IMG/VR virus record: IMGVR_UViG_3300049255_000556
Location: 1 to 32,631 of that record
From: a virus
Direction: 5' to 3' (one strand)
Length of the DNA: 32,631 nt
Shown: positions 2,817-24,728 of the stretch, in pieces
Layout: the number at the start of each line of letters is the position of its first letter
Position numbering within the stretch: the first letter of the stretch is position 1
The notes under the pieces: generated by a model
What the model was told of the DNA's origin: nothing
Seen by the model: the letters and a program-made list of their open reading frames with translations, nothing else
Database searches by the model: none
Position numbers and translations under genes: made by a program

Positions 2817-3563
2817 TTAAACCTCCATGATATTGCACCACACAACAAAAGGGTTGGCGTTATTCGAAGCATTCAAAATAATTGAGTCGCTTGCATTGAG
2901 AGAAGTTCCTCCTGATAATTGCATTGGGTTCGCGCCTCCCACATTCACTTGACTGATCACCTTATTCCCTAACCCAGAAACGCCGCCATTTGGCACGTAA
3001 TTTAAGTTCATCGTGATCGTAGATCCCGAATTGTTGAATCCAAAAATAGAGTTAGAGTCGCCATTCCATGTCGAACTTCCCATGATAAAAACAGACTTCA
3101 TAGCTGGGACGGTATAAAGAATATTGTCTCCACTTGCCAATGAAAGTAGTCTGGGCGATTTCATCCCTGAAGTCTTATCAAACTCCATGACATGAGTCCA
3201 TAAATTGATGCCTGCTTGAGACATATTAAGGGCTATCGTGTCCCCTTCCTCCAAAATAATCGGTGTTCCTTGGTTGAGGTCGATGATGTTGATATAAGTA
3301 TTTGTTGCTAAAGTAGTCGTAGGAGAAAGACGATAATAAACTCCGCTGATTTTTACTTCAAAGTACAGGGTTGTGGTGCTCCCAGCTGTATTAAATAGGT
3401 CTATTTCATTGATAAACGCTCTTTTGCCCGATGGGACCGTATAAATATCTATGTCTCCAGATCCAGCATTGCCTATAAATCCTACTGGAAACTTTAAGCC
3501 ACTAATCCCAAGCCCTTGGTAAAAAGACATCGTACTGTTATTTATCGCATTTTGTGTGCCCAT
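2817..3563 (-). CDS. Tail-fibre-like paralogue, third of trio
   Basis: A 248-residue protein, last in a three-gene array of paralogues. It begins with the signature MGTQNAINN seen in other fibre genes here, followed by two homologous halves. The first contains GDIDIYTVPSGKRA and VKISGVYYRL, the second contains GDNILYTVPAMKS. The shared stretch IILEEGDTIALNMSQAG is nearly identical in all three. There is no signal peptide or membrane segment, and composition is rich in Ser, Thr, Asn and Gly as in beta-structured fibre proteins. Its ATG overlaps the upstream TAA (TAATG), implying coupled translation. Role as a host-binding tail component is inferred from the N-terminal signature and the phage context; no receptor or enzyme motif is visible. 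Confidence 0.6.
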   Translation of the reverse strand: MGTQNAINNSTMSFYQGLGISGLKFPVGFIGNAGSGDIDIYTVPSGKRAFINEIDLFNTAGSTTTLYFEVKISGVYYRLSPTTTLATNTYINIIDLNQGTPIILEEGDTIALNMSQAGINLWTHVMEFDKTSGMKSPRLLSLASGDNILYTVPAMKSVFIMGSSTWNGDSNSIFGFNNSGSTITMNLNYVPNGGVSGLGNKVISQVNVGGANPMQLSGGTSLNASDSIILNASNNANPFVVWCNIMEV

Positions 3564-4294
3564 TATATTTCCATTACGCTAACCCAAAGCATCTGCCCCG
3601 GATCTCCCGTTCCTAAGTTGTATGATACAAAATCACCAGCATTCAAACTTTTCGGACCAGCTAGGGATGTCACCCCATTGGCCGATACTGCATTATTGAT
3701 CGAGCTATTTGTAGGCCCTGGAGACCCGCCGTTGGGAACTACTCTACAATCCAATGTTGAACTTACACTGGCTGCACTAGCTAAAAATGCTCCTATTGAA
3801 TTATTGATCGACAAATTTCTATCCAGCATCCATGCGCTTTTACCCACTGGAACCATATAAATCGTATTATCACCAGTAGAGGGTCCTAAGATTTTCGATG
3901 TTTTCAGACCTGTATTGATATCAAACTCCATGACCCTCGACCATACATTCAGACCGGCCTGCGAAGTATTATAAGAAAAAATCTCTCCTGGCTCTAAAAT
4001 GATTGATGGGGCCTGGACACTAGCTGTACTAATGCCAGCAGCCGTGCTTGAATTGATGCTTACTCGATAATACACTCCGCCTACTTTGATTTGAGTATGC
4101 CAGGTAGTCAGAGTGGCAGCCGAATTATAGGCATGTTGGCTGAAAATAGCCGCTCTTTTGCCAGGCGGAACCGTGTAAATATCCACATCCCCACTCCCAA
4201 TATTTGATTGGAAAATGGATACAAATCTAGGATTACTGACATAAATACCTCCCAGACCTCCCATCACAGCATTTTCAATCACATTCTGTGCCAT
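3563..4294 (-). CDS. Tail-fibre-like paralogue, second of trio
   Basis: A 243-residue paralogue of its two neighbours. It begins MAQNVIENAV, a diverged form of the common N-terminal signature. The first half has GSGDVDIYTVPPGKRA and VGGVYYRV; the central IILEPGEIFSYNTSQAGLN is shared; the second half has TGDNTIYMVPVGKSA. The two halves look like an internal duplication. It is coupled on both sides by TAATG overlaps. The C-termini of the three (VSVMEI, WMNVVEI, CNIMEV) are similar, so the proteins are full length and not decayed copies. Function is inferred as an alternative or co-assembling fibre/adhesin subunit. Confidence 0.6.
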   Translation of the reverse strand: MAQNVIENAVMGGLGGIYVSNPRFVSIFQSNIGSGDVDIYTVPPGKRAAIFSQHAYNSAATLTTWHTQIKVGGVYYRVSINSSTAAGISTASVQAPSIILEPGEIFSYNTSQAGLNVWSRVMEFDINTGLKTSKILGPSTGDNTIYMVPVGKSAWMLDRNLSINNSIGAFLASAASVSSTLDCRVVPNGGSPGPTNSSINNAVSANGVTSLAGPKSLNAGDFVSYNLGTGDPGQMLWVSVMEI

Positions 4295-5043
4295 TAGATC
4301 TCCACTACATTCATCCAGGCGGTTTGAATTCCTGTTCCAACTGAAGTATTTAAAACCACAAAGTCTCCACCATTCAAACAGGGAATCACTTGTGGGAAAA
4401 AGCCATTGTTATTTGATACATTTGTCGCCGCACTCACTTGATTGCTTACCCCCTTTACTCCCCCATTCGGAATAAAATAGAGCGTGTATTGCGCCGTTCC
4501 CCCAGAGACATTGATGCATCGAAAACTACTTCGATTGGCCGCAACTATTGTCGTTACCATATTGCCTCCCAGTCCAGATGCTGTTTTGCCAGAAGGGACA
4601 GTATAGATGGTGTTATCACCACTAATCAGGTTCAGAATCTTTGGAGAATAAATGGGGTACGTCGCGTCATATTCGAAAATGCTATACCAGAAATTTAACC
4701 CAGCTTGAGATGTGTTAATCGCAAGGGTTTCTCCAGATTCCAAGATGATTGCAGGAACAGCTATATCCCCTGAGCTAGCTCCTGAAGAGGTATTTACTGT
4801 TGCATTAAGGCGATAGTAAACGCCAGCGATTTTTAATGTGCAAAACCAGTTTGTAGTAGTTCCTGCGGTATTTTTTGTCTCATAGGATAAGGCCATAGCA
4901 CGTCTGCCAGTCGGCGCTGTATAGAGGTCTATGTCTCCTGCTCCAGCATTTCCCAAAAAGGCTTTAAAAAAGCGCCCTCCATAAATGGGTAAGTTGGCAG
5001 GGAAAGATTGTCCTTGTCTATTGATCGAATTTTGAATGAACAT
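4294..5043 (-). CDS. Tail-fibre-like paralogue, first of trio
   Basis: A 249-residue first gene of the minus-strand trio. It starts MFIQNSINRQG, with AGGAAG ideally spaced upstream of the ATG at 5041-5043. The same two-halved plan is present: AGAGDIDLYTAPTGRRA and IAGVYYRL, then IILESGETLAINTSQAGLN, then SGDNTIYTVPSGKTA. It ends with the common WMNVVEI. Being first, it probably lies just downstream of the promoter of this short operon, which would be in 5050-5130 on the minus strand; I see no convincing consensus there. Role in host recognition is inferred only from the signature and context. Confidence 0.6.
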   Translation of the reverse strand: MFIQNSINRQGQSFPANLPIYGGRFFKAFLGNAGAGDIDLYTAPTGRRAMALSYETKNTAGTTTNWFCTLKIAGVYYRLNATVNTSSGASSGDIAVPAIILESGETLAINTSQAGLNFWYSIFEYDATYPIYSPKILNLISGDNTIYTVPSGKTASGLGGNMVTTIVAANRSSFRCINVSGGTAQYTLYFIPNGGVKGVSNQVSAATNVSNNNGFFPQVIPCLNGGDFVVLNTSVGTGIQTAWMNVVEI

Positions 5044-7137: not shown

Positions 7138-7746
7138 ATGAAAAAAATTTTTCTGTTTTTGATTTCAATATTTGCAACTGCAAGTGCTTTTGCAGAACCA
7201 TTTTCATTTTCTAATTTTTACATTGATGGATTCGGAGGAATCAATTTTGTGAATAGTTTCAAAGAACGCGGTGTTCGAGTCGATTTAAATTCTGGATATG
7301 CAGTAGGGGGCGCATTGGGATATAGGTTCTCAAGATTTTTTAGGCTTGAAGGAGAAGCAGCATATAGATCCAATACATTCGATCAAGTGGTTGTAAAAGA
7401 CATGCAATTCCCTGCTTCTGGAGGCATCAAAAATATGACTGCTATGGCAAATGGGCTCATTGAAATCCCCCTATTAGAAAACACTCTAATCCCCTACTTC
7501 GGCGGTGGAATTGGCGAAAGCTGGAGCAGAGAGAACTTCAAATTAGAACCCATAGCAACAGATGAAGGAACCTATGTTTTTGACAGATCCATAAAGAGTA
7601 GTCGTGGTTTAGCTGGTCAAGGTATAGTGGGATTAATTTTCTCCACTGGCCAAAAAATACAGGCAGCCGTGGAATATCGCTATTTAGATGGCTCTCACAT
7701 CCAAGGGAATCACACAATAGGTCTAAACTTAAAAAGATATTTCTAA
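7138..7746 (+). CDS. Outer-membrane beta-barrel protein (Opa/OmpW-like), cargo
   Basis: A 202-residue secreted protein. It begins with a textbook Sec signal peptide (MKKIF, hydrophobic core, cleavage after AFA at residue 19). The mature part has alternating beta-strand patterns, GALGYRFSRFFRLEGEAAYR, YFGGGIGESW, AAVEYRYLDG, and ends in an aromatic C-terminal strand (LNLKRYF), the BamA recognition signature. It therefore looks like a small 8-stranded porin-like or opacity-type surface protein. A strong GGAGGT site precedes the ATG. It is not a phage structural gene and stands alone, so it resembles a lysogenic-conversion gene that alters the host surface, perhaps for superinfection exclusion or interaction with a eukaryotic host. 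The fold is confident; function is inferred. Confidence 0.8.
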   Translation: MKKIFLFLISIFATASAFAEPFSFSNFYIDGFGGINFVNSFKERGVRVDLNSGYAVGGALGYRFSRFFRLEGEAAYRSNTFDQVVVKDMQFPASGGIKNMTAMANGLIEIPLLENTLIPYFGGGIGESWSRENFKLEPIATDEGTYVFDRSIKSSRGLAGQGIVGLIFSTGQKIQAAVEYRYLDGSHIQGNHTIGLNLKRYF

Positions 7747-7757
7747 AGATAGGACAC

Positions 7758-7792
7758 TCCAAATGCTCTTCACTCGAAAAAGAGCATTTGGA
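7758..7792 (+). terminator. 13-bp perfect stem after outer-membrane protein gene
   Basis: TCCAAATGCTCTT (7758-7770) pairs exactly with AAGAGCATTTGGA (7780-7792) around a 9-nt loop, 12 bp after the barrel gene stop. No good T-run follows on the plus strand (AAATTTAC), so termination may be weak, or it may be an RNA-stabilising hairpin. Confidence 0.6.
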
Positions 7793-7940: not shown

Positions 7941-8070
7941 CTGGTTTGTTGGATTTCCAACTTTACGGATGGTTGGATGGTTGATAAACAAACCAGATGG
8001 ATTGTTTCTTTGCTGGATGTATGGCTTGTTGGTTGAATGGATGGATTGCTTAATTACTGGATGTCCAGTT
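7941..8070. repeat. TGGATGG repeat cluster, candidate centromere (parS-like) site
   Basis: A roughly 130-bp cluster of short G/T-rich repeats. GGATGGTTGGATGGTTG lies at 7967-7983, with further copies of TGGATG, GATGGATTG and TTGGTTGAATGG to 8047. The cluster is bounded by two 6-2-6 palindromes of the same type, GTTGGATTTCCAAC (7948-7961) and ACTGGATGTCCAGT (8056-8069). It lies at the 3' side of the divergent RHH gene and not in a promoter, so a centromere bound by an RHH protein is more likely than an operator. The complementary sequence recurs inside the gene after parA. Confidence 0.55.
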
Positions 8071-8466: not shown

Positions 8467-9246
8467 ATGTTCAAAATAGCGATCTGCAACCAAAAGGGAG
8501 GATGCGGAAAAACAACTACAAGCATCAACCTTGCGGCAGGTTTAGCCTATGCTGGAAAAAAGGTCCTCCTCATAGACCTAGACCCCCAAGGAAACTCCAC
8601 TATAGGACTCGGAATCAAGACAGAAAATCGACAAACGATTGCCGAACTACTATGCCAAGAAGAGTGTGAAGTAAAAGACATTGTGCAAGATACGTATATT
8701 GAAGGATTGCATATTCTCCCCTCAGATGTTTCTTTAGCTGTCGCTGATGTGAAGCTTGCCCAAATCCAAGCTAAAGAATTCGCTCTGCGTTCTAAGCTGA
8801 CAAATATCAATTATGACTATCTCATCATTGATACCTCTCCTACCTTTGGCACTCTATTAACCAATGCTGTTTTAGCTGTCGATCATATCATTTTACCGGT
8901 CGGATTGGATTTTTTTAACTTAGCTGGCATGCAAAGCTTCGTAGATACAATTAATCGCACTAATAAGAAAGTTGGCCATCACGTGAACCATCGAGCTGAA
9001 ATTCTTGGTGTACTCGTAACCTTTTTCAAAATGTCAACTAAACACTCAAAGAAAATTTTTGACGCAATCAATGAGCTCTTTGGTGAGAAAGTCTTTAATA
9101 CAAAAATTCCTGAGAACGTCCGATTGAAAGAGTCTCAAGAAGCTGCAAAAGCAATTTTCGATTTTGCTCCTGATTGCAGTAGTGCAATTGCTTATCGTGA
9201 CCTTACAAAAGAACTTGAGGAGAGATTAAGTTATGTCAGGAATTGA
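8467..9246 (+). CDS. parA: ParA partition ATPase
   Basis: A 259-residue ParA/Soj-type ATPase that positions plasmid copies over the nucleoid. The deviant Walker A is KGGCGKTT with signature Lys10; Walker A' is LLIDLDPQGN; Walker B is YLIIDTSPTFG. There is no N-terminal HTH, so it is the short ParA form (type Ib or Soj-like), which relies on a partner for autoregulation. AAGGA lies 8 nt upstream of the ATG. Its stop overlaps the start of the next gene by 14 bp, the usual parA-parB arrangement. The chlamydial plasmid protein pGP5 belongs to the same family. A plasmid-maintenance function is strongly supported by its neighbours. Confidence 0.93.
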   Translation: MFKIAICNQKGGCGKTTTSINLAAGLAYAGKKVLLIDLDPQGNSTIGLGIKTENRQTIAELLCQEECEVKDIVQDTYIEGLHILPSDVSLAVADVKLAQIQAKEFALRSKLTNINYDYLIIDTSPTFGTLLTNAVLAVDHIILPVGLDFFNLAGMQSFVDTINRTNKKVGHHVNHRAEILGVLVTFFKMSTKHSKKIFDAINELFGEKVFNTKIPENVRLKESQEAAKAIFDFAPDCSSAIAYRDLTKELEERLSYVRN

Positions 9247-9790
9247 AGAGCTCAAGCAAAAAACCAAAATATCAATGGATGAAATGTATGAAGATCAGCC
9301 AGTTGGGAAAATGGAAAAAAAGATATCTGGACAAACAGACAGCCAACTAGCTGGACAAATGGGAAACCAACCATCCAATCATCCAACAAAAAATCCACCT
9401 ATCAAGAAATTTGAAAAGGAATCCAAACAGACAAACAACCATCCAAGAAACCAAGAAGCCAAACAACCAGAGAGTTGGACTTCTGGACAACCAGTTAACC
9501 AGCTAGCCAGCAAGTTGGCAAAACAGTTAAATGAACAGCCAGATGTCCATGAAAGTGGATTAATGGATACCCAGATAACCAGACAACCATCAGTATATCC
9601 TGTAAAGCAAATGCAACCACAAAAGATGTCCACTTGCAAAATGACTTTTAATTTGACAGAAGACATCTATAAAGCGTTTAACGACCTCTACGCTAAGCGA
9701 ATGCTACAAGGACGTAAAACGGAAAAATCTGAATTGATTTGCGAAGCCATTCAATGGCTAATCAAAATGGAAGAAAATGGGACAAATTAA
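9233..9790 (+). CDS. ParB-like centromere-binding protein with RHH C-terminus and Q/N/P-rich linker
   Basis: A 185-residue protein translationally coupled to parA. Residues 1-25 are a short acidic/basic head, about 25-120 are a low-complexity Gln/Asn/Pro-rich linker built of short repeats (QPxNQ, NHPxN, QLAxQ), and 125-180 form an RHH-like domain: MTFNLTEDIYKAF as strand plus helix, then TEKSELICEAIQWLIKM. A disordered N-terminus that stimulates ParA plus a C-terminal RHH is the plan of ParG-type partners. The linker is unusual because its coding DNA consists of CCAACC/CCATCC repeats complementary to the cluster at 7941-8070, so the gene may carry its own binding sites. GAGGAGA precedes the start. 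The role is inferred from position and fold; there is no classical ParB HTH. Confidence 0.72.
   Translation: MSGIEELKQKTKISMDEMYEDQPVGKMEKKISGQTDSQLAGQMGNQPSNHPTKNPPIKKFEKESKQTNNHPRNQEAKQPESWTSGQPVNQLASKLAKQLNEQPDVHESGLMDTQITRQPSVYPVKQMQPQKMSTCKMTFNLTEDIYKAFNDLYAKRMLQGRKTEKSELICEAIQWLIKMEENGTN
9318..9600. repeat. Intragenic CCATCC/CCAACC repeats, mirror of the upstream cluster
   Basis: Within the linker of the parB-like gene, short repeats recur at irregular spacing: CCAACCATCCAATCATCC (9367-9384), CAACCATCCAAG (9437-9448), CAACCAGTTAACCAGC (9488-9503) and CAGATGTCCATG (9540-9551). Read on the minus strand the first gives GGATGATTGGATGGTTGG, almost the plus-strand repeat at 7967-7983. This may be a second centromere-like cluster embedded in coding DNA, or simple codon-level repetition. 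Confidence 0.5.
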
Positions 9791-9841
9791 ACAAAACCGC
9801 AAAGTTACGACAAAAGCATCAGTTAGTTCAAGGGATTGAGA

Positions 9842-12199
9842 ATGATCGACAACCTAGTCAAAGAAAAGCTAAAGGCGTCTATTCGAATAGAGGAAGTAGC
9901 TGAGCATTTGGATCTTCATCATATGCTAAACCTCAAGCGCGTCGGTGGGCATTTGGTCGGTCAATGCATCATGGGACACGATTCAAAAAGTGGACAGTGC
10001 TTTAAGCTGGGTCCGAATTGGAGTCATTTTCATTGTTTTAGTTGTAACGAGTCCTTTGATGCCATAGAGCTTATCCAAAAAGTAAAGGGGCTGAGTTTTG
10101 TCGAAGCATGCAAGTATCTTGCAGAAACATTTCGCCGAGATTTGCTAGAAGATCTGAACAAAAGCAATCTCTTGAATCCAGAGGCTAAGAAGTCTTATTC
10201 CACAGCCAATCTTTATGAATTGATCTTTGAATATGGACAAGAATTACTCGTAAAAGAAGAGGGGAGTGAAGCATTTGAATACCTCACGAAAGTTAGGGGA
10301 TATGAGCCTTCCAAATTATTTTCTACCGAATGGATTTATTGGCCTAGAGATGCAGAGCTCAGAGAATACCTAAAAAAACGACTTCCATTTGAACGAAAAC
10401 ATGAAGCAAGTGAAATTAAACTTAATGGGGCAGGAGGAGATCTCTTTAGAGCAGCTCTTCCTTATAGAGACAAATTTGGAAGAATTCTTGGCTTTGCAAA
10501 GAGATCCACTATTACGAAAGGGGTAGAGGGATCTGATGGTCGTACATACAGATGGAGCTACACATCTGGCCTTAAAAAAGATGATCTCTTCAATATCTAT
10601 AAATGCAAACATGAAAAGCAGCTTCTCTTAGTCGAAGGTCTCCCAGATGCTGCTTATCTACCTAGTTTAGGACTCTCAAACATTGTAGCCACAGGTCAAG
10701 GAGAGCTCTCTTCAAAACACATCGAGAGTTTGAAGATTTATGAAATCGAAAGTGTCATCATAGCCTTTGATAACGAACCAAAAAACAGCAAAGGGGAAAT
10801 TGGTTCCGTTGAAAAATCCAAAAAAGCAGCAGATCTCCTAGAAAGAAATGGAATTAAAGCATTCATCTTACCTCCTCATCTCCTTGCTCCATTTAAAGAT
10901 CCTGATGAATATGTGAAGTCATATGGAGTAGATGCTTTCAGAAAATTGATCAAAGAAAAAGCCCTGGCAAGAGCACGATGGCTTCCTGCTTATTTTGCTT
11001 ACAAAGATGATCTCAACACTGATATCGGTCGTTATTCAGCATTAGCAAGAGCTGCAAAAGAATATGTCCGAATAGAAGATGCTTTAGACAAGAATATCTT
11101 CAAACAAGAAATAGAAGTTGTTTTTAGCCTTAGCCAAAATGAAATCGATGGAGTGATGGCTAAAGTTCTAAAAGAGCAAAAAGAAAAAGAGGATGAGGAA
11201 AAGCATAAAAAGCTTCTAGAAGATGCTCAGAGGCTTCTTTCACACGGAGAGATAAATAAAGTAGAGCAACTTCTTTCTCATTTAAAAAAAACGCAAACAA
11301 GTGATGAATTCTTTCTACAACCTTACACAGTAAAAAACTTAAAAGCAGACCTATCCAACATCAAAGAAGGATTGAAAACTGGATACAAATCCCTCGATGA
11401 CATTATCCAGATCCCTCAAGAAGCCATCACTATCATTGCTGGAAGGCCTTCTCATGGAAAAACGACCACTCTACTCAATTTCTTCGTAAATATGGTCAAA
11501 ATCTATCCAGAGAGAGAATTTTACTTTTTTTCATATGAGGAACCAAGAAATCAAATCCTACTGAAAGTATTAAATATTCTTAGCGGAGATCTCATCAGCG
11601 GATCTAACAATTTAGGGGAGTTAGAAGGGTATATTCGTGGAGGATTTACAAGCCGTTCACGTATTAATGAAGCTTCTGCAACTCTTCAATCTCTGACTGA
11701 AAGCCACAGGCTTATGGTTTGTGATTATTCATACTTTGCGGATGACTTAGCAAAGGTCATTGCAACCTTGCGAGAAAAACGAGGGAAAATAGGCGCTATC
11801 TTCATAGATTACATTCAAAAGATAAAATACAAACACAGATGCTCGACAAGACAACTTGAGCTGCAAAAAATATCTGAGACAATCCTAGAAACAGCAAAAT
11901 TCAATTCCGTGCCTATAGTTCTCGGAGCACAGCTTGGACGAGGGAATAGCAAAAAAGAGGTTCTTCGACTTGATAATCTTCGAGAAGCTGGGGACATTGA
12001 AAATGACGCCAAACTTGTGCTAGGTATTTGGAATCAAGCCAAGGAAGAAGCCGAAAATAAAGGAGAAACTCTTACAAGTAGGAAAGTTGACCTAGATTGT
12101 GTAGTGCTTAAAAACCGCAATGGACCCTCCAATCAGAGCGTATCTTTAGAATTTGATAGACCTTTATCCACACTGCATGAGAAGAACTGGAACATATGA
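9842..12199 (+). CDS. Primase-helicase fusion (CHC2-like zinc finger, TOPRIM, DnaB-type helicase)
   Basis: A 785-residue replication protein that should prime and unwind DNA. Residues 1-85 hold a zinc finger with Cys42, His46, Cys65 and Cys68 (HCFSC), as in bacterial and T7-type primases. Residues about 255-340 are a TOPRIM domain (LLLVEGLPDA with Glu265; IIAFDNE with Asp310), and 505-785 are a RecA-like DnaB helicase domain: Walker A AGRPSHGKTT (533-542), Walker B IFIDYIQKI, and GAQLGRG in the H3 region. The middle is Lys/Glu-rich and probably helical. The ATG at 9842 is chosen over TTG 9836 because AAGGGA is 6 nt upstream. T7 gp4 has the same order. It overlaps the next gene by ATGA, forming a replication operon ending at the iterons. 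Confidence 0.88.
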   Translation: MIDNLVKEKLKASIRIEEVAEHLDLHHMLNLKRVGGHLVGQCIMGHDSKSGQCFKLGPNWSHFHCFSCNESFDAIELIQKVKGLSFVEACKYLAETFRRDLLEDLNKSNLLNPEAKKSYSTANLYELIFEYGQELLVKEEGSEAFEYLTKVRGYEPSKLFSTEWIYWPRDAELREYLKKRLPFERKHEASEIKLNGAGGDLFRAALPYRDKFGRILGFAKRSTITKGVEGSDGRTYRWSYTSGLKKDDLFNIYKCKHEKQLLLVEGLPDAAYLPSLGLSNIVATGQGELSSKHIESLKIYEIESVIIAFDNEPKNSKGEIGSVEKSKKAADLLERNGIKAFILPPHLLAPFKDPDEYVKSYGVDAFRKLIKEKALARARWLPAYFAYKDDLNTDIGRYSALARAAKEYVRIEDALDKNIFKQEIEVVFSLSQNEIDGVMAKVLKEQKEKEDEEKHKKLLEDAQRLLSHGEINKVEQLLSHLKKTQTSDEFFLQPYTVKNLKADLSNIKEGLKTGYKSLDDIIQIPQEAITIIAGRPSHGKTTTLLNFFVNMVKIYPEREFYFFSYEEPRNQILLKVLNILSGDLISGSNNLGELEGYIRGGFTSRSRINEASATLQSLTESHRLMVCDYSYFADDLAKVIATLREKRGKIGAIFIDYIQKIKYKHRCSTRQLELQKISETILETAKFNSVPIVLGAQLGRGNSKKEVLRLDNLREAGDIENDAKLVLGIWNQAKEEAENKGETLTSRKVDLDCVVLKNRNGPSNQSVSLEFDRPLSTLHEKNWNI

Positions 12200-13860
12200 G
12201 CAACCAATCATTAAAAGAAAAGCCTAAGGCCAAAAAAGCAAAAAGCAAGACTTCAAAAAAAGAAGTAGCTCATGAACTCATTGTTCCTGAACATGAAGGA
12301 CCAGATTATCGACTCACTGTCATCAATAAAAAACTCCATGTAGTCGATAATAAGACAGGAAAAACTATCAATATCAATACCATTGAAGATCTGCAAATGC
12401 TTGGTATTCCTTTCAGTGAAGTCAATAGCTCTGAAAGTAAAGAATGGGAATCCGCTGCATCCTCTATCCAAAATTTTTCCCCAACTCAGCTTACTTCTTT
12501 GAAAAACATACTCAGCGAAATGGGTCCTACCATCCAAAAAACGCTCATCGAAGAAGCCATCCAACGTGTTATTGAGCAATCTTCAAATAAAGATACTTTT
12601 GCTTTCCCTTCTCATGCTCTCATGTTCACATTGCTTGCCATGTTTGCTGGTAAACCAGACAAAATTCCACGACGTCTATTAAGTAAACCTCACTCAGAAT
12701 GGACGAATGAGGAACGAAAAGAAGCCGAAGAATTTTTATCTTCAATCATTCGAGTCGAAAAAAATCCTTCTTTCTTAAATGGAAAAGAAGAAACTGAAGA
12801 AAAATTTATTGCTATAGTAAGTGACAATCCCAAAGTAGAAGCGCAGGCAGAAATTTCAGCATCCATTTTCAAAGAAGATCTCCATTTTAGAGAAGTAAGC
12901 TTAGCAATGCATATCAAACGCACTTTTGGTGCTGAAGGCCTTCGACATCTACTAGGCTTGCTAATAGGTTTAGAAGAGAATTTTAGAAAAGGTCACTTTA
13001 TATGGAGCGTCAATGAGCATCTTGCAAGACTTGGGTACAATAAGAAGTCTCATGGGGGCTATGACCAAGAATTAAAGAAAACATCTAGTGAGATCATTAA
13101 AGTTTTTCAAAGCTTGTTTATCACAGCTCGAAAAAAAGAAGGGAAAAAGGAAGTAATCCAAGGAGAGCGTCTCTTTAGTGTTGATGGTTTCCGGCAAGAA
13201 ATTTTTGATAAGGTCATCATTGATGAAAAAATCAAACTGAGAGCGACAGACTTTTGGTATAAAAATGCATTTGAACCCAAAGATGGCCAGGCTAGAAAAT
13301 ACACAAAATTGCTAAAGAAAATAGCTCATGAAAACCATCGAGAGCATCATCTCACAATCTATTTAGCACCTTTATTGGCAATTTTCTGGCGCATGAATCC
13401 TCAACAAAAAATCTCCGTGATTAGCTTAATGGACTGGTGTGATTTGGATTATAAGGGACGATATAAACTTAGGGATCTGAGAGCTCTGGAATGTGAACTC
13501 AACTATATGAAAGAACATGGATATTTAGGGGAGTGGAAAAGCAATGGAGAACAGTTGCTTCCATCGAAGTCTGAAGATCCTTTCAAATGTTCTCTTACGC
13601 TAACTCCTCCTGAATGGCTTGATCAAGAATTGAAACTTATCCAAAGCAAGCGTGAAATCCCAGCCATAGAAAAACAAGAGGAACTGCCCCTAACTCTCGC
13701 AGAATTTCGTGAAATATTTAAAAACTCAAAACTCAATGCTAAACAATTCGCTAGTCATCTTGGTATCACAGCAGCAATGGTAAGCCTCATTTTGAACGAA
13801 AAAAGACCCATAAAAGAAGATATAGCGAATAAAGTCAGGGAATTTGCTAAATCTTTTTAG
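12196..13860 (+). CDS. Putative replication initiator with C-terminal XRE-type HTH
   Basis: A 554-residue protein I do not recognise by family. The first 25 residues are Lys-rich and probably flexible. Residues about 230-480 contain helical segments and short strands that could be winged-helix units (AEGLRHLLGLLIGLEENF; IWSVNEHLARLGYN; VISLMDWCDLDYKGRYKLR), as in plasmid Rep proteins. Residues 495-554 form a clear Cro/C1-like HTH (SKLNAKQFASHLGITAAMVS). It is coupled to the primase-helicase by ATGA and ends 26 bp before the first iteron, the usual place of an initiator. Initiator function is therefore inferred from location and DNA-binding domains. The alternative is a regulator or helicase loader. 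A Pfam/HHpred match to Rep_3 or RepA_N would settle it. Confidence 0.55.
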   Translation: MSNQSLKEKPKAKKAKSKTSKKEVAHELIVPEHEGPDYRLTVINKKLHVVDNKTGKTININTIEDLQMLGIPFSEVNSSESKEWESAASSIQNFSPTQLTSLKNILSEMGPTIQKTLIEEAIQRVIEQSSNKDTFAFPSHALMFTLLAMFAGKPDKIPRRLLSKPHSEWTNEERKEAEEFLSSIIRVEKNPSFLNGKEETEEKFIAIVSDNPKVEAQAEISASIFKEDLHFREVSLAMHIKRTFGAEGLRHLLGLLIGLEENFRKGHFIWSVNEHLARLGYNKKSHGGYDQELKKTSSEIIKVFQSLFITARKKEGKKEVIQGERLFSVDGFRQEIFDKVIIDEKIKLRATDFWYKNAFEPKDGQARKYTKLLKKIAHENHREHHLTIYLAPLLAIFWRMNPQQKISVISLMDWCDLDYKGRYKLRDLRALECELNYMKEHGYLGEWKSNGEQLLPSKSEDPFKCSLTLTPPEWLDQELKLIQSKREIPAIEKQEELPLTLAEFREIFKNSKLNAKQFASHLGITAAMVSLILNEKRPIKEDIANKVREFAKSF

Positions 13861-13885
13861 TCAAAAAAGAGAAAAAGCTCAGCAG

Positions 13886-15158
13886 AATTAACAAAATCCC
13901 ACTCCCTTGATCACAGCTATCAGAGATAAGCACATCTGATTTCTTGATTAACAAGAGCTGTTTTGCATTGGAAAATCGAAAAAATATATTTTGAATTTCA
14001 TGCGATTATGTCGCGCTTTCAGATTAACAAGATTAACAAAAGCCAACCCTCTTGATCACAGTTTGTCGAGAAGAAGAGCCTTTCACTCCAATTAACAACA
14101 CCCTACTCTCTCAGTCACAAACGATTTGGAAAATATTGCTATCACTTAAAGACTTAGATACAAAAGAAAGGCGATTAACAAGATTAACAAAAACCACCTC
14201 TCTTGATCACAGTTTTCTAAGATAGATAATAGTGCTAATCCTCATAGGGTTACGTACTTGATTTATCGATTAACAGGATTAACAAGATCCAACTCCCTTG
14301 ATCACAGTTTAGCAAGAGAACTGGTATTTCACTCCATTAACAAAGGCCACCTTTCTCAGTCACAAGTGATCTCAAAAATAGTATTGTTTCTTAATGATTT
14401 AGCTATTCAAAAGAGCGATTAACAGAATTAACAAGATCCAACCCCCTTGATCACAGCTATCGGAGATAAAAAAAGTTAAGAGCTTTCCGATTAACAAGCA
14501 CCATTCTTTTAAACAGAGGCGGAATTTAAAAAATTTTCTATTCAGAATAATGGCATACGCGAGACTGCATGATTAACAAGATTAACAAAAACCACCTTTC
14601 TTAATCACACTTTACCGAGAGGCGAGTGCTTGACCACAATTAACAAACACCTACTCCCTTAGTCACACAACAATTCCATAATGTCATTTATATTTAGATA
14701 TTTAAGTATAAAAAATGCCACTTAACAAAATCGGCAAAATCCAACCATCTTAATCACAAAAATGATTTTTTTATAATGACTGAAAATCAAAAGGTTATGA
14801 ATTAAGTATGCAATTAACAAGATTAACAAGATCCAACCCTCTTGATCACAGTTTGCAGAGAGAAAGATTCGATTAGTCAAGTTAACAAAGCCAAACCCTC
14901 TTAGTCACAGGTAATTTTGAAAACAATGTTATTGCTTAAGCACTTAAATATGAAAAAAGAGCGATTAACAAGATTAACAAAATACCCCTCCCTTGATCAC
15001 AGTTTTTGCTTCCTATTAAGTTCATAAACTGGTGATTAACAACACCCTACCCTCATAATCACAATACCCAACTCCCTTGATCACAATACCTACCCCCCTT
15101 GATCACAAGGTGTTTCTTAAATCGCTGAAAATGAGAGATATAAATAGGGATTAACAAG
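13886..15158. repeat. Iteron array, probable replication origin
   Basis: A 1.3-kb non-coding array of direct repeats. Class A units (about 40 bp) have two GATTAACAA boxes, a C-rich stretch and TTGATCACAG: 14022-14061, 14173-14212, 14268-14307, 14417-14456, 14571-14609, 14812-14851 and 14963-15002, with a diverged copy at 14721-14758. Class B units (about 30 bp) have one ATTAAC box and end in AGTCACA: 14090-14119, 14335-14364, 14638-14667 and 14871-14910; 15034-15063 ends in TAATCACA. A single-box unit lies at 13886-13916, box-only half-sites at 13946, 14489 and 15149, and box-less tails at 15064-15107. Units are ordered A-B-A, repeated four times with a period near 243 bp. Position directly after the initiator candidate supports an iteron origin. 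Confidence 0.8.
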
Positions 15159-15161
15159 CTT

Positions 15162-15242
15162 AATTATATTCAATCAGAATATAATTTTGTTAACTGCTCC
15201 GCAGTAAACAACAGCTCTCTCTCGCTTACGCTACGAGAGCTG
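15162..15242. terminator. Three consecutive hairpins between origin and tail operon
   Basis: Three inverted repeats lie end to end. AATTATATTC (15162-15171) pairs with GAATATAATT (15177-15186); GTTAACTGC (15189-15197) pairs with GCAGTAAAC (15201-15209) with one mismatch; CAGCTCTC (15212-15219) pairs with GAGAGCTG (15235-15242). They lie 40 bp past the stop of the last tail-operon gene and could terminate its leftward transcription before the origin. None has a classical long T-run, so they could instead be origin structures. Confidence 0.45.
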
Positions 15243-15282: not shown

Positions 15283-15885
15283 TCAAACTTTTAGCTCCCA
15301 AACAATAATGGATGATTCAATAGCTCCTCCAAAAAGTTGTGCAGAGGGAGTGCCATTAATATATGCTGTGCCTGAGGGCGCAACTCCAAGATAGACTTTG
15401 AAAGTAGTTGGACTAATAGTTCCTGCTGTCATGTAGTGATTTAGAGTAATCGGACCTGGGTTTGGTCCAGATGTGTATAACACGCCTGCCGTTAAAGCGT
15501 TTATTATAGAATCTTGAAAAAGGGCAATGATAGGTTCATTGACTCCTGAGTTGGAGGATGCGTAAGCAAGAACTTGGATAAATAATAGATTGTTGGAGTT
15601 TGTTGGGGTTATCGACACGCTATACATAAAAGCGCCCCCAGAAGTGGTTGGAACAGCTGTTAATGAAAAAGCATTAGACGTATTTGAGTAAGTGCTAAAG
15701 CTCGTTCTTTTATATTGAACTAGGGTTTGAAAAGCAGAGGGAGGCTGGAAAGAGGGAGCAACTCCAGGTCCATTTGAAGTTGCTACATTTCCAGCGGCTC
15801 CAGGATTTAAACCAGAAAAGAGTCCATTTCCATTATAGTGGACCAGTCCTGGGGAAATTAGGTTAATTGAGTTATTTGTTCCCAT
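15283..15885 (-). CDS. Fibre-like protein, signature N-terminus, YING-type C-domain
   Basis: A 200-residue protein. The ATG at 15885 is chosen because it begins with MGTNNSINLISPG, the signature of the other fibre genes, and overlaps the upstream TAA (TAATG). Residues 1-60 form a Gly/Pro-rich stem (LFSGLNPGAAGN). Residues 75-200 are a beta-rich domain (VSITPTNSNNLLFIQVLAY, TAYINGTPSAQLFGG) that also forms the C-terminal part of the gene at 16606-17238. It is the last gene of the long tail operon. No catalytic motif is seen; receptor binding or fibre-tip function is inferred from its location and modular sharing. Confidence 0.62.
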   Translation of the reverse strand: MGTNNSINLISPGLVHYNGNGLFSGLNPGAAGNVATSNGPGVAPSFQPPSAFQTLVQYKRTSFSTYSNTSNAFSLTAVPTTSGGAFMYSVSITPTNSNNLLFIQVLAYASSNSGVNEPIIALFQDSIINALTAGVLYTSGPNPGPITLNHYMTAGTISPTTFKVYLGVAPSGTAYINGTPSAQLFGGAIESSIIVWELKV

Positions 15886-16547
15886 TATACATATGATATG
15901 TTGCCGATTGCGCTGTCTACTCTCCAGGTTGTATTTGCAACGATGCAAATCAATTCTAAACAGTCACCTGCATCTGTGCTTGCCAAAGACCCGCCTGCAC
16001 CGACTGTGGTCGCTATATTGCCAAACAAAATGGATTGGCCTGCGCCTTGAGAAATTGACCATGCGCCTTGGATGCCCACTATTCTCATCGTATCAAATTT
16101 TGCGGCAGTTGAGGGGAGACTGAAAGCAACCGCCGTTGGATTGTTAGCATAATATCCATTGCCAGATACCATTGCTTGTGAAGAGCCTGTTACATCCGTC
16201 CATGCTGTGACCCCACCAGATCCTGTGGCTGGAGCCCATTTGGTTCCGGATGGTTGAGAAGAATCGGCTGTTAAGACATAGGTATCTGCACCAACGGCGA
16301 GTGGAGTGAATGCACTTGGTCCGGTCCCAACCAGAATCACCCCTTTTGCTGTATAGTCTGCAAAACCGATTAAGGTATCTGCCGCCCTATTTGGGTATGT
16401 ATAAACACCTGCCCCAGCAAATTGGTTTGTAAGGGTAAAATCACCATTCCCATTGAATGTGGCTGTTCTTTTGGTGGTTCCTCCACCAATGCTAAAGCCA
16501 ACCAAAAGGTTGGCAATATCTAGGTTTACTGCTGAATTATGAGCCAT
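15885..16547 (-). CDS. Fibre-like protein with QGAGQ C-terminal domain
   Basis: A 220-residue protein starting MAHNSAVNLDIANLL, a variant of the common signature. It contains the stem motif SSQPSGTKWAPATG, common in phage fibres, and a C-terminal domain of about 80 residues (WSISQGAGQSILFGN, then CLELICIVANTTWRV, then GNISYV). That domain is shared with the protein at 19653-20135, whose N-terminus is unrelated, showing domain shuffling. It is coupled to the downstream gene by TAATG. Role: probably a fibre or fibre-tip component; no enzymatic motif is seen. Confidence 0.62.
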   Translation of the reverse strand: MAHNSAVNLDIANLLVGFSIGGGTTKRTATFNGNGDFTLTNQFAGAGVYTYPNRAADTLIGFADYTAKGVILVGTGPSAFTPLAVGADTYVLTADSSQPSGTKWAPATGSGGVTAWTDVTGSSQAMVSGNGYYANNPTAVAFSLPSTAAKFDTMRIVGIQGAWSISQGAGQSILFGNIATTVGAGGSLASTDAGDCLELICIVANTTWRVDSAIGNISYV

Positions 16548-24369: not shown

Positions 24370-24728
24370 GCTAATAACTCCTGCGTAAGAGTAATTTCAC
24401 CCTGGATGGTGCTTACTGAAAAAGTGACAGAGTAAATGCGGCGTTGATCATCAAAATTGCTTGTAAAACTCAGTATTTCACTGACACCAGGCGTATTGAG
24501 AATTTCTTGTTTGAGGACACTTTCTATACGGATTTGATTAGGAGCTTTGATGAAAAAATCTTGATAATAGGAAACTCCTGCTGAAATATCTAAAAACCAT
24601 TCACCTAAAATAAAGCGCAATCTAATCGCTAAATTTTGAGTAATTTGGTCTTGATTTTCAACAAGCTGTAAATCAAAATCTTGTAATAAAAGATCGCCAG
24701 TTGTTTTATCCAGCGCGATATCTTTCAT
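24366..24728 (-). CDS. gpW/gp25-like baseplate wedge protein
   Basis: A 120-residue protein of the gp25 family: the N-terminal beta-hairpin (DIALDKTTGDLLLQDFDLQLVEN), the helix with QNLAIRLRFILGEWFLDISAGVSYYQDFF, and the C-terminal strand region (FSVSTIQGEITLTQELL). gp25 initiates sheath polymerisation at the baseplate and is diagnostic of contractile tails and related injection systems. It is coupled with baseplate J by ATGA. An 83-bp gap separates it from the upstream spike gene, one of the few gaps in the operon. Confidence 0.87.
   Translation of the reverse strand: MKDIALDKTTGDLLLQDFDLQLVENQDQITQNLAIRLRFILGEWFLDISAGVSYYQDFFIKAPNQIRIESVLKQEILNTPGVSEILSFTSNFDDQRRIYSVTFSVSTIQGEITLTQELLA

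Follow-up and report, generated by a model that had tools for sequence, protein, structure and literature searches.

A probable replication origin with a serial A-B-A repeat array in a phage-plasmid of environmental Chlamydiota

Introduction

In the Chlamydia plasmid, Pgp2 has been proposed as an iteron initiator whose gene shares an operon with that of the helicase Pgp1 (PMC11895440), and the iterons are four 22-bp tandem repeats (PMC7259575). In ori2 of Vibrio cholerae chromosome II, which measures about 900 bp including its regulatory half, the initiator RctB recognises two classes of sites, and a core (ori2-min) lies beside a regulatory array (ori2-inc) (PMC6090056). A survey of chlamydial plasmids described a phage gene group on the plasmids of C. 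sequanensis and P. massiliensis (PMC7846284).

Here we analyse a repeat array in a viral sequence of 32,631 nucleotides (IMG/VR record IMGVR_UViG_3300049255_000556, positions 1 to 32,631), hereafter referred to as the window. We consider it quite likely that the array and an adjoining conserved core serve a phage-plasmid of environmental Chlamydiota as its iteron-controlled origin of replication, in which a 554-aa protein acts as initiator, the core opens and the array limits copy number. This would define an origin type for a phage-plasmid family of environmental chlamydiae, with a searchable core, a two-class site code and a likely initiator, and it offers a first look at how such chlamydial phage-plasmid origins are built and evolve.

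Judged by published descriptions, the locus resembles the Pgp1-Pgp2 replicon of Chlamydia in that a single operon holds the helicase and initiator-like genes, the direct repeats measure 22 bp and the host belongs to the Chlamydiota. Unlike that replicon, the window encodes a primase-helicase fusion and a 554-aa protein with a C-terminal HTH, carries 14 long units of bipartite build in addition to 22-bp units, and has its array directly 3′ of the initiator gene, together with a conserved palindrome and hairpins. Its anatomy is similar to that of ori2, with two classes of putative initiator sites and a core beside what may be a regulatory array, and its predicted initiator can be likened to RctB, an initiator with several HTH domains (PMC6090056). 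However, the RctB 39-mers are unrelated in sequence to the RctB iterons, whereas the A and B units of the window share one core; site number and layout also differ, and no sequence relationship between ori2 and the window was found.

Results and Discussion

A predicted initiator encoded beside the array

The array follows two genes:

9836..12199, + strand: primase-helicase (CHC2 zinc finger, Toprim, DnaB_C)
12196..13860, + strand: 554-aa replication-initiator-like (Pgp2-like) protein, with a winged helix at about residues 368-478 and an HTH at 500-554 (local model)

The end of the primase-helicase gene overlaps the start of the initiator-like gene by 4 bp, the two forming one operon, and their order parallels that of Pgp1 and Pgp2 in Chlamydia. 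Pfam and PHROG searches of the 554-aa protein returned no family match, and a PDB sequence search gave no convincing match to any solved initiator. The full-length AlphaFold model was too poor for use (mean pLDDT 49); the usable model regions are the one winged helix (fair confidence) and the HTH. The cognate Rep of an iteron-type origin has two winged-helix domains; in the window protein, the region outside this one winged helix was modelled with low confidence. A Foldseek search with residues 209-488 gave no significant match, and VIA-align listed generic winged helices (Z about 5-6), placed at 368-478, without pi or RepE, an absence that excludes nothing. As in the Pgp2 system, the gene stands in an operon with a helicase gene, a pairing kept in relatives, and the locus has 22-bp tandem iterons. 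From these features we infer that the protein works like Pgp2, that is, as a predicted initiator.

Repeat units form four A-B-A modules

We detected 16 co-oriented repeat units at window positions 13887-15107, all on the + strand and none elsewhere in the 32.6-kb window. A 37-nt repeat is present in 13 copies, accompanied by further 22-bp tandem units, within 13879-15107 on the same strand. With a position weight matrix derived from 14 of the 16 units, each unit scored at least 19.8, and the best non-unit places in the window scored 5.6 (+ strand) and -0.4 (- strand). Class A units consist of TTAACA-n3-TTAACA, with the boxes 9 bp apart, followed by a block ending in CTTGATCACA or CTTAATCACA; class B units have a single TTAACA box and mostly end in TCAGTCACA or TTAGTCACA. 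Leave-one-out scoring reproduced the class of 13 of 14 units and left the one at 14581 undecided (score 0.0). The order of classes reads A(ABA)(ABA)(ABA)(ABA)B, with a period-3 agreement of 10/11 (shuffle p = 0.003). The array contains the following features:

13887..13915, + strand: unit A1, upstream second box lost
13947..13955, + strand: lone box b1, ATTAACAAG, 60 bp after A1, in the place of a B unit
14023..14212, + strand: module 1 (A 14032, B 14091, A 14183)
14269..14456, + strand: module 2 (A 14278, B 14336, A 14427)
14490..14498, + strand: lone box b5, ATTAACAAG, 63 bp after A5 (the unit at 14427) and 91 bp before A6
14572..14759, + strand: module 3 (A 14581, B 14639, A 14730, the last with a degenerate inner box, ATCGGCA)
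14813..15002, + strand: module 4 (A 14822, B 14881, A 14973)

The unit at 14973 also leads into the origin core as A-62-B-22-C-22-C. These results agree with the original prediction that the class order is non-random and that A-B-A recurs four times, with starts near 14022, 14268, 14571 and 14812. Inside modules 1 to 4, the A-to-B and B-to-A steps are 59+92, 58+91, 58+91 and 59+92 bp, respectively. Successive modules start 246, 303 and 241 bp apart, so that the predicted distance of 241-246 bp between matching units holds for the first and last steps; the middle one is 303 bp because the segment with lone box b5 is present there. This extra segment, predicted at 14489 with a counterpart at 13946, is real (boxes at 14490 and 13947), and the spacers from A1 to 13947 and from A5 to 14490 match one another (p 0.0002). 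We considered the lone boxes as decayed B units, for which their position fits, but their 3′ halves gave no convincing B score (p 0.28 at 13947 and 0.03 at 14490), and this reading was not adopted. Nor was a larger period of 543 bp (A b A B A A B) preferred, as autocorrelation at 544-549, although present, was weaker than at 303 and 245.

When the modules are aligned together with their spacers (about 185 bases), their identity is 74-80%. Against dinucleotide shuffles, the B-to-A spacers of modules 1, 2 and 4 are clearly related (identity 68-72%, p 0.0002 each), that of module 3 is more weakly so (p 0.002), and the short A-to-B spacers show weak relatedness (p about 0.01 at best). The A-to-A spacers between modules (14212-14268 and 14759-14812) showed no significant relatedness (p 0.08). 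The predicted kinship of the AT-rich spacers is therefore borne out inside modules, whereas between modules it did not reach significance. Since the B-to-A spacers are related, the modules were likely copied together with their inner spacers, and the segment of an A unit plus a lone box was likely copied as well.

A conserved core adjoining the array

A conserved core of about 210 bp (15035-15242) lies at the right end of the array. It falls partly outside the interval first described and was missed there. Its parts are:

15035..15108, + strand: a B unit and two 22-bp tandem units (15057, 15079), found by TRF and aligned in all core-bearing relatives
15150..15158, + strand: half-site box ATTAACAAG, GTAAACA in most relatives and GTTAACA in G109
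15164..15184, no strand: AT-rich palindrome TTATATTCAATCAGAATATAA, conserved, with compensatory changes in G109
15189..15209, no strand: hairpin 1, GTTAACTGC-TCC-GCAGTAAAC, conserved, its arms being inverted box sequences
15212..15242, no strand: hairpin CAGCTCTC...GAGAGCTG, conserved

TRF delimited the 22-bp tandem array at 15039-15108, and GC content is 27% at 15120-15209 versus 42-45% immediately before. As in iteron origins, same-direction repeats stand beside a rep-like gene and tandem units of about 22 bp beside an AT-rich stretch. The conserved core is likely the minimal origin; the A-B-A array next to it more probably serves in regulation or binding. The expectation of an origin larger than typical iteron origins was only partly right, the probable minimal origin being about 210 bp with the array beside it; the size of ori2 with its regulatory half, about 900 bp, gives the scale (PMC6090056).

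No Rfam match was found. In nucleotide searches, the array matched nothing in phages and, in plasmids, the Criblamydia core alone; the exact window-type unit was not found in viral contigs. The core palindrome alone retrieved, among viral contigs, those of this family and otherwise chance matches in coding or AT-rich DNA.

A contractile-tail operon lies downstream of the array on the opposite strand, so that the array stands between this operon and the initiator operon, both converging on it. This position would suit a regulatory operator for the tail operon or another promoter rather than an origin. We find such a role very improbable: the array is at the 3′ ends of both operons, promoter-like matches within it are at chance level (5 found versus 5.3 expected), and the core is conserved in synteny with the initiator gene.

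The core in relatives and its synteny with the initiator gene

Within what was searched, relatives of the 554-aa protein occur in Chlamydiota only. They include the Criblamydia sequanensis plasmid NZ_LK031773 (76%), six IMG/VR contigs and MAGs labelled Parachlamydiales, Rhabdochlamydiaceae and Chlamydiae; matches were found in 8 of 234 Chlamydiota genomes, three of the eight being distant. All Chlamydiota relatives with long enough contigs (10/10), the Criblamydia plasmid among them, have the core downstream of this initiator-like gene; L005 was left out of this count because its contig ends too early. The plan shared by ten relatives comprises a unit, two units at exact 22-bp steps, an AT-rich stretch, a half-site box, the palindrome TTATATTCAAnnAGAATATAA, an inverted-box hairpin (GTTTAC...GTAAAC) and a second hairpin (CTCTC...GAGAG). 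Because this synteny is kept in relatives, sequence comparison gives good support for regarding the A and B repeats as putative iterons of the 12196-13860 protein.

NZ_LK031773 has the same order of ParA, 185-aa protein, primase-helicase, initiator and array as the window, and the first three genes travel with the 554-aa gene in relatives. The likeness between the window and NZ_LK031773 and L002-L007 covers ParA, the 185-aa protein, the primase-helicase, the initiator (70-76% identity), A/B units and the core. Their boxes, however, are GTAAACA instead of ATTAACA. Relatives carry 5-11 irregularly spaced A/B-type units. Most of these lie beyond the core, a region that is free of units in the window, and no A-B-A periodicity was found in the relatives. 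The palindrome starts 237-286 bp past the initiator gene in nine relatives versus about 1,305 bp in the window, because the A-B-A array sits in between. The A-B-A series thus appears, so far, to be particular to the window. Past the core, relatives again contain A-B pairs, with the two units at a distance of 54-57 bp, which suggests that the A-B pair is old. In several relatives, two A-class units also lie 1.7-3 kb past the initiator gene at a conserved distance of 204-206 bp from each other (L012, about 24464-24670; beyond the origin in L002 and L004).

Two distant Chlamydiota homologues, L037 and L038, have an initiator-like gene after a DnaB-type helicase gene, followed by their own 22-bp repeats, whose sequence is unrelated to the repeats of the window. 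The N-terminal domain of the L037 protein is clearly homologous to that of the window protein (hhalign probability 95%), and the homology of the L038 protein is weak (21%).

Several plasmid partition systems use repeat arrays as centromeres. The array could accordingly be mainly a parS/parC-like partition centromere bound by the 185-aa protein encoded near ParA (9233-9787), with the origin confined to the core; ParA and this downstream partner are indeed in the same gene block. Such a function is improbable in our assessment, as the array lies 4 kb from parA and after the initiator gene, the core contains the same unit type as the array, a separate repeat cluster is present upstream of parA (7996-8064), and the distant homologues keep 22-bp repeats directly after an initiator-like gene.

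Core duplication and possible covariation of boxes with the predicted initiator

G109 holds the whole core twice (274 bp, 96% identity, at a distance of 641 bp) and also has a 44-bp tandem copy:

G109:C3:26797-26979, - strand: core copy (L048), GTTAACA boxes
G109:C3:27431-27620, - strand: core copy (L048), GTTAACA boxes

Judged by its sequence, the double core arose when a plasmid origin recently underwent segmental duplication. Together with the related spacers and the 1.3-kb gene-to-core distance in the window, it supports the earlier proposal that a composite unit was segmentally duplicated. Origin growth by segmental duplication thus seems to have been caught at two stages, a recent one in G109 and an older one in the window.

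All three core dyads of G109 depart from those of the other relatives through paired changes, five base pairs being altered in both arms; 98% of cells in the dyads are paired, a value reached in 0 of 500 shuffles. These compensatory changes come from the single G109 lineage, and pair counts before its addition were uninformative. In hairpin 1 of G109, both arms have changed to GTTAAC, matching the change in its iterons. More generally, the box type shifts together in the array, the half-site and hairpin 1, being GTAAACA, GTTAACA (G109) or mostly ATTAACA (window).

The predicted recognition helix of the C-terminal HTH includes residue 527, which is Gln in ten relatives (GITGQMVS), Pro in G109 (GITGPMVS) and Ala in the window (GITAAMVS), so that both TTAAC-box lineages have lost an otherwise invariant Gln. 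In the tree, G109 and L005 form a group (99/96) that is separate from the window; G109 and the window are not sisters, and box and residue 527 therefore differ together in two separate lineages. A link between residue 527 and box type is suggestive only, as two lineages are involved, both of which differ at ten positions that are otherwise invariant (2.2 expected). The natural series GTAAACA / GTTAACA / ATTAACA, in which boxes and one recognition-helix residue change together, makes initiator specificity directly testable.

This covariation also bears on a different reading of the core, in which the palindrome and hairpins are an att or dimer-resolution site for the tyrosine integrase encoded at 1-987 and the array provides arm-type sites. 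An integrase gene is present in the window and the 21-bp palindrome is highly conserved, but the gene lies at the far end of the window, and tblastn found no integrase homologue in the relative loci, most of which are cut around the origin. As the box type, in the array as in hairpin 1, changes along with the initiator HTH, we judge a recombination site to be quite improbable.

A model for origin function and copy control

In the favoured origin model, the predicted initiator would bind the A, B and 22-bp units, the TTAACA boxes probably being read by its C-terminal HTH (recognition helix at about residues 526-533). Opening would take place in the conserved core, and the co-transcribed primase-helicase would be loaded at the opened origin. 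In the lineage of the window, the A-B-A segment would have been duplicated with its spacers between the initiator gene and the core. The resulting dense array most likely titrates much of the initiator and pairs origins by handcuffing, which would lower copy number in the manner of ori2-inc of V. cholerae chromosome II (PMC6090056).

Within this origin model, the A-B-A order may be a neutral by-product of unequal exchange, unit number and sequence being what matters and the module being of no consequence, a possibility that we rate seriously, if at somewhat less than even. Units in the first or the second A position resemble those of their own position no more than those of the other (p = 1.0), a loss of positional memory that is expected if protein binding or conversion homogenises unit cores. 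No convincing helical phasing was found in the unit spacing, and the module periodicity is absent in relatives. A neutral order fits less well with the A-to-B distance, which is held at 58-59 bp in 4/4 modules, and with the recurrence of A-B pairs beyond the core in relatives. Alternatively, the A-B-A block with its fixed steps of 58-59 and 91-92 bp could be a functional composite operator. The initiator on double-box A and single-box B units would then form a looped or paired complex, copy number would be set by module number and geometry rather than by iteron count, and the inverted-box hairpin of the core would switch between pairing and opening. We regard this operator as unlikely, and lean towards array growth with the order as a by-product, plus titration, over functional geometry.

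Surroundings of the origin

The window ends exactly at gene boundaries on both sides, which suggests that it is a provirus cut out of a longer contig. We additionally noted the following features:

2817-5043, - strand: three adjacent ORFs of 243-249 aa without a Pfam match
7138-7746: gene for an outer-membrane beta-barrel protein, here carried by a phage-like element
7758-7792: inverted repeat with perfectly matching 13-bp arms and a 9-bp loop, just after the beta-barrel gene and before parA
7996-8064: cluster of 20-24-bp TGGATGG-like repeats, a candidate partition site
15283-15948, - strand: 221-aa protein at the end of the tail operon

The 221-aa protein matched Pfam Chlam_vir (the Pgp3 C-terminal domain) at 24.7 bits against a cut-off of 25, and may be a tail-tip protein that shares a trimeric fold with chlamydial Pgp3.
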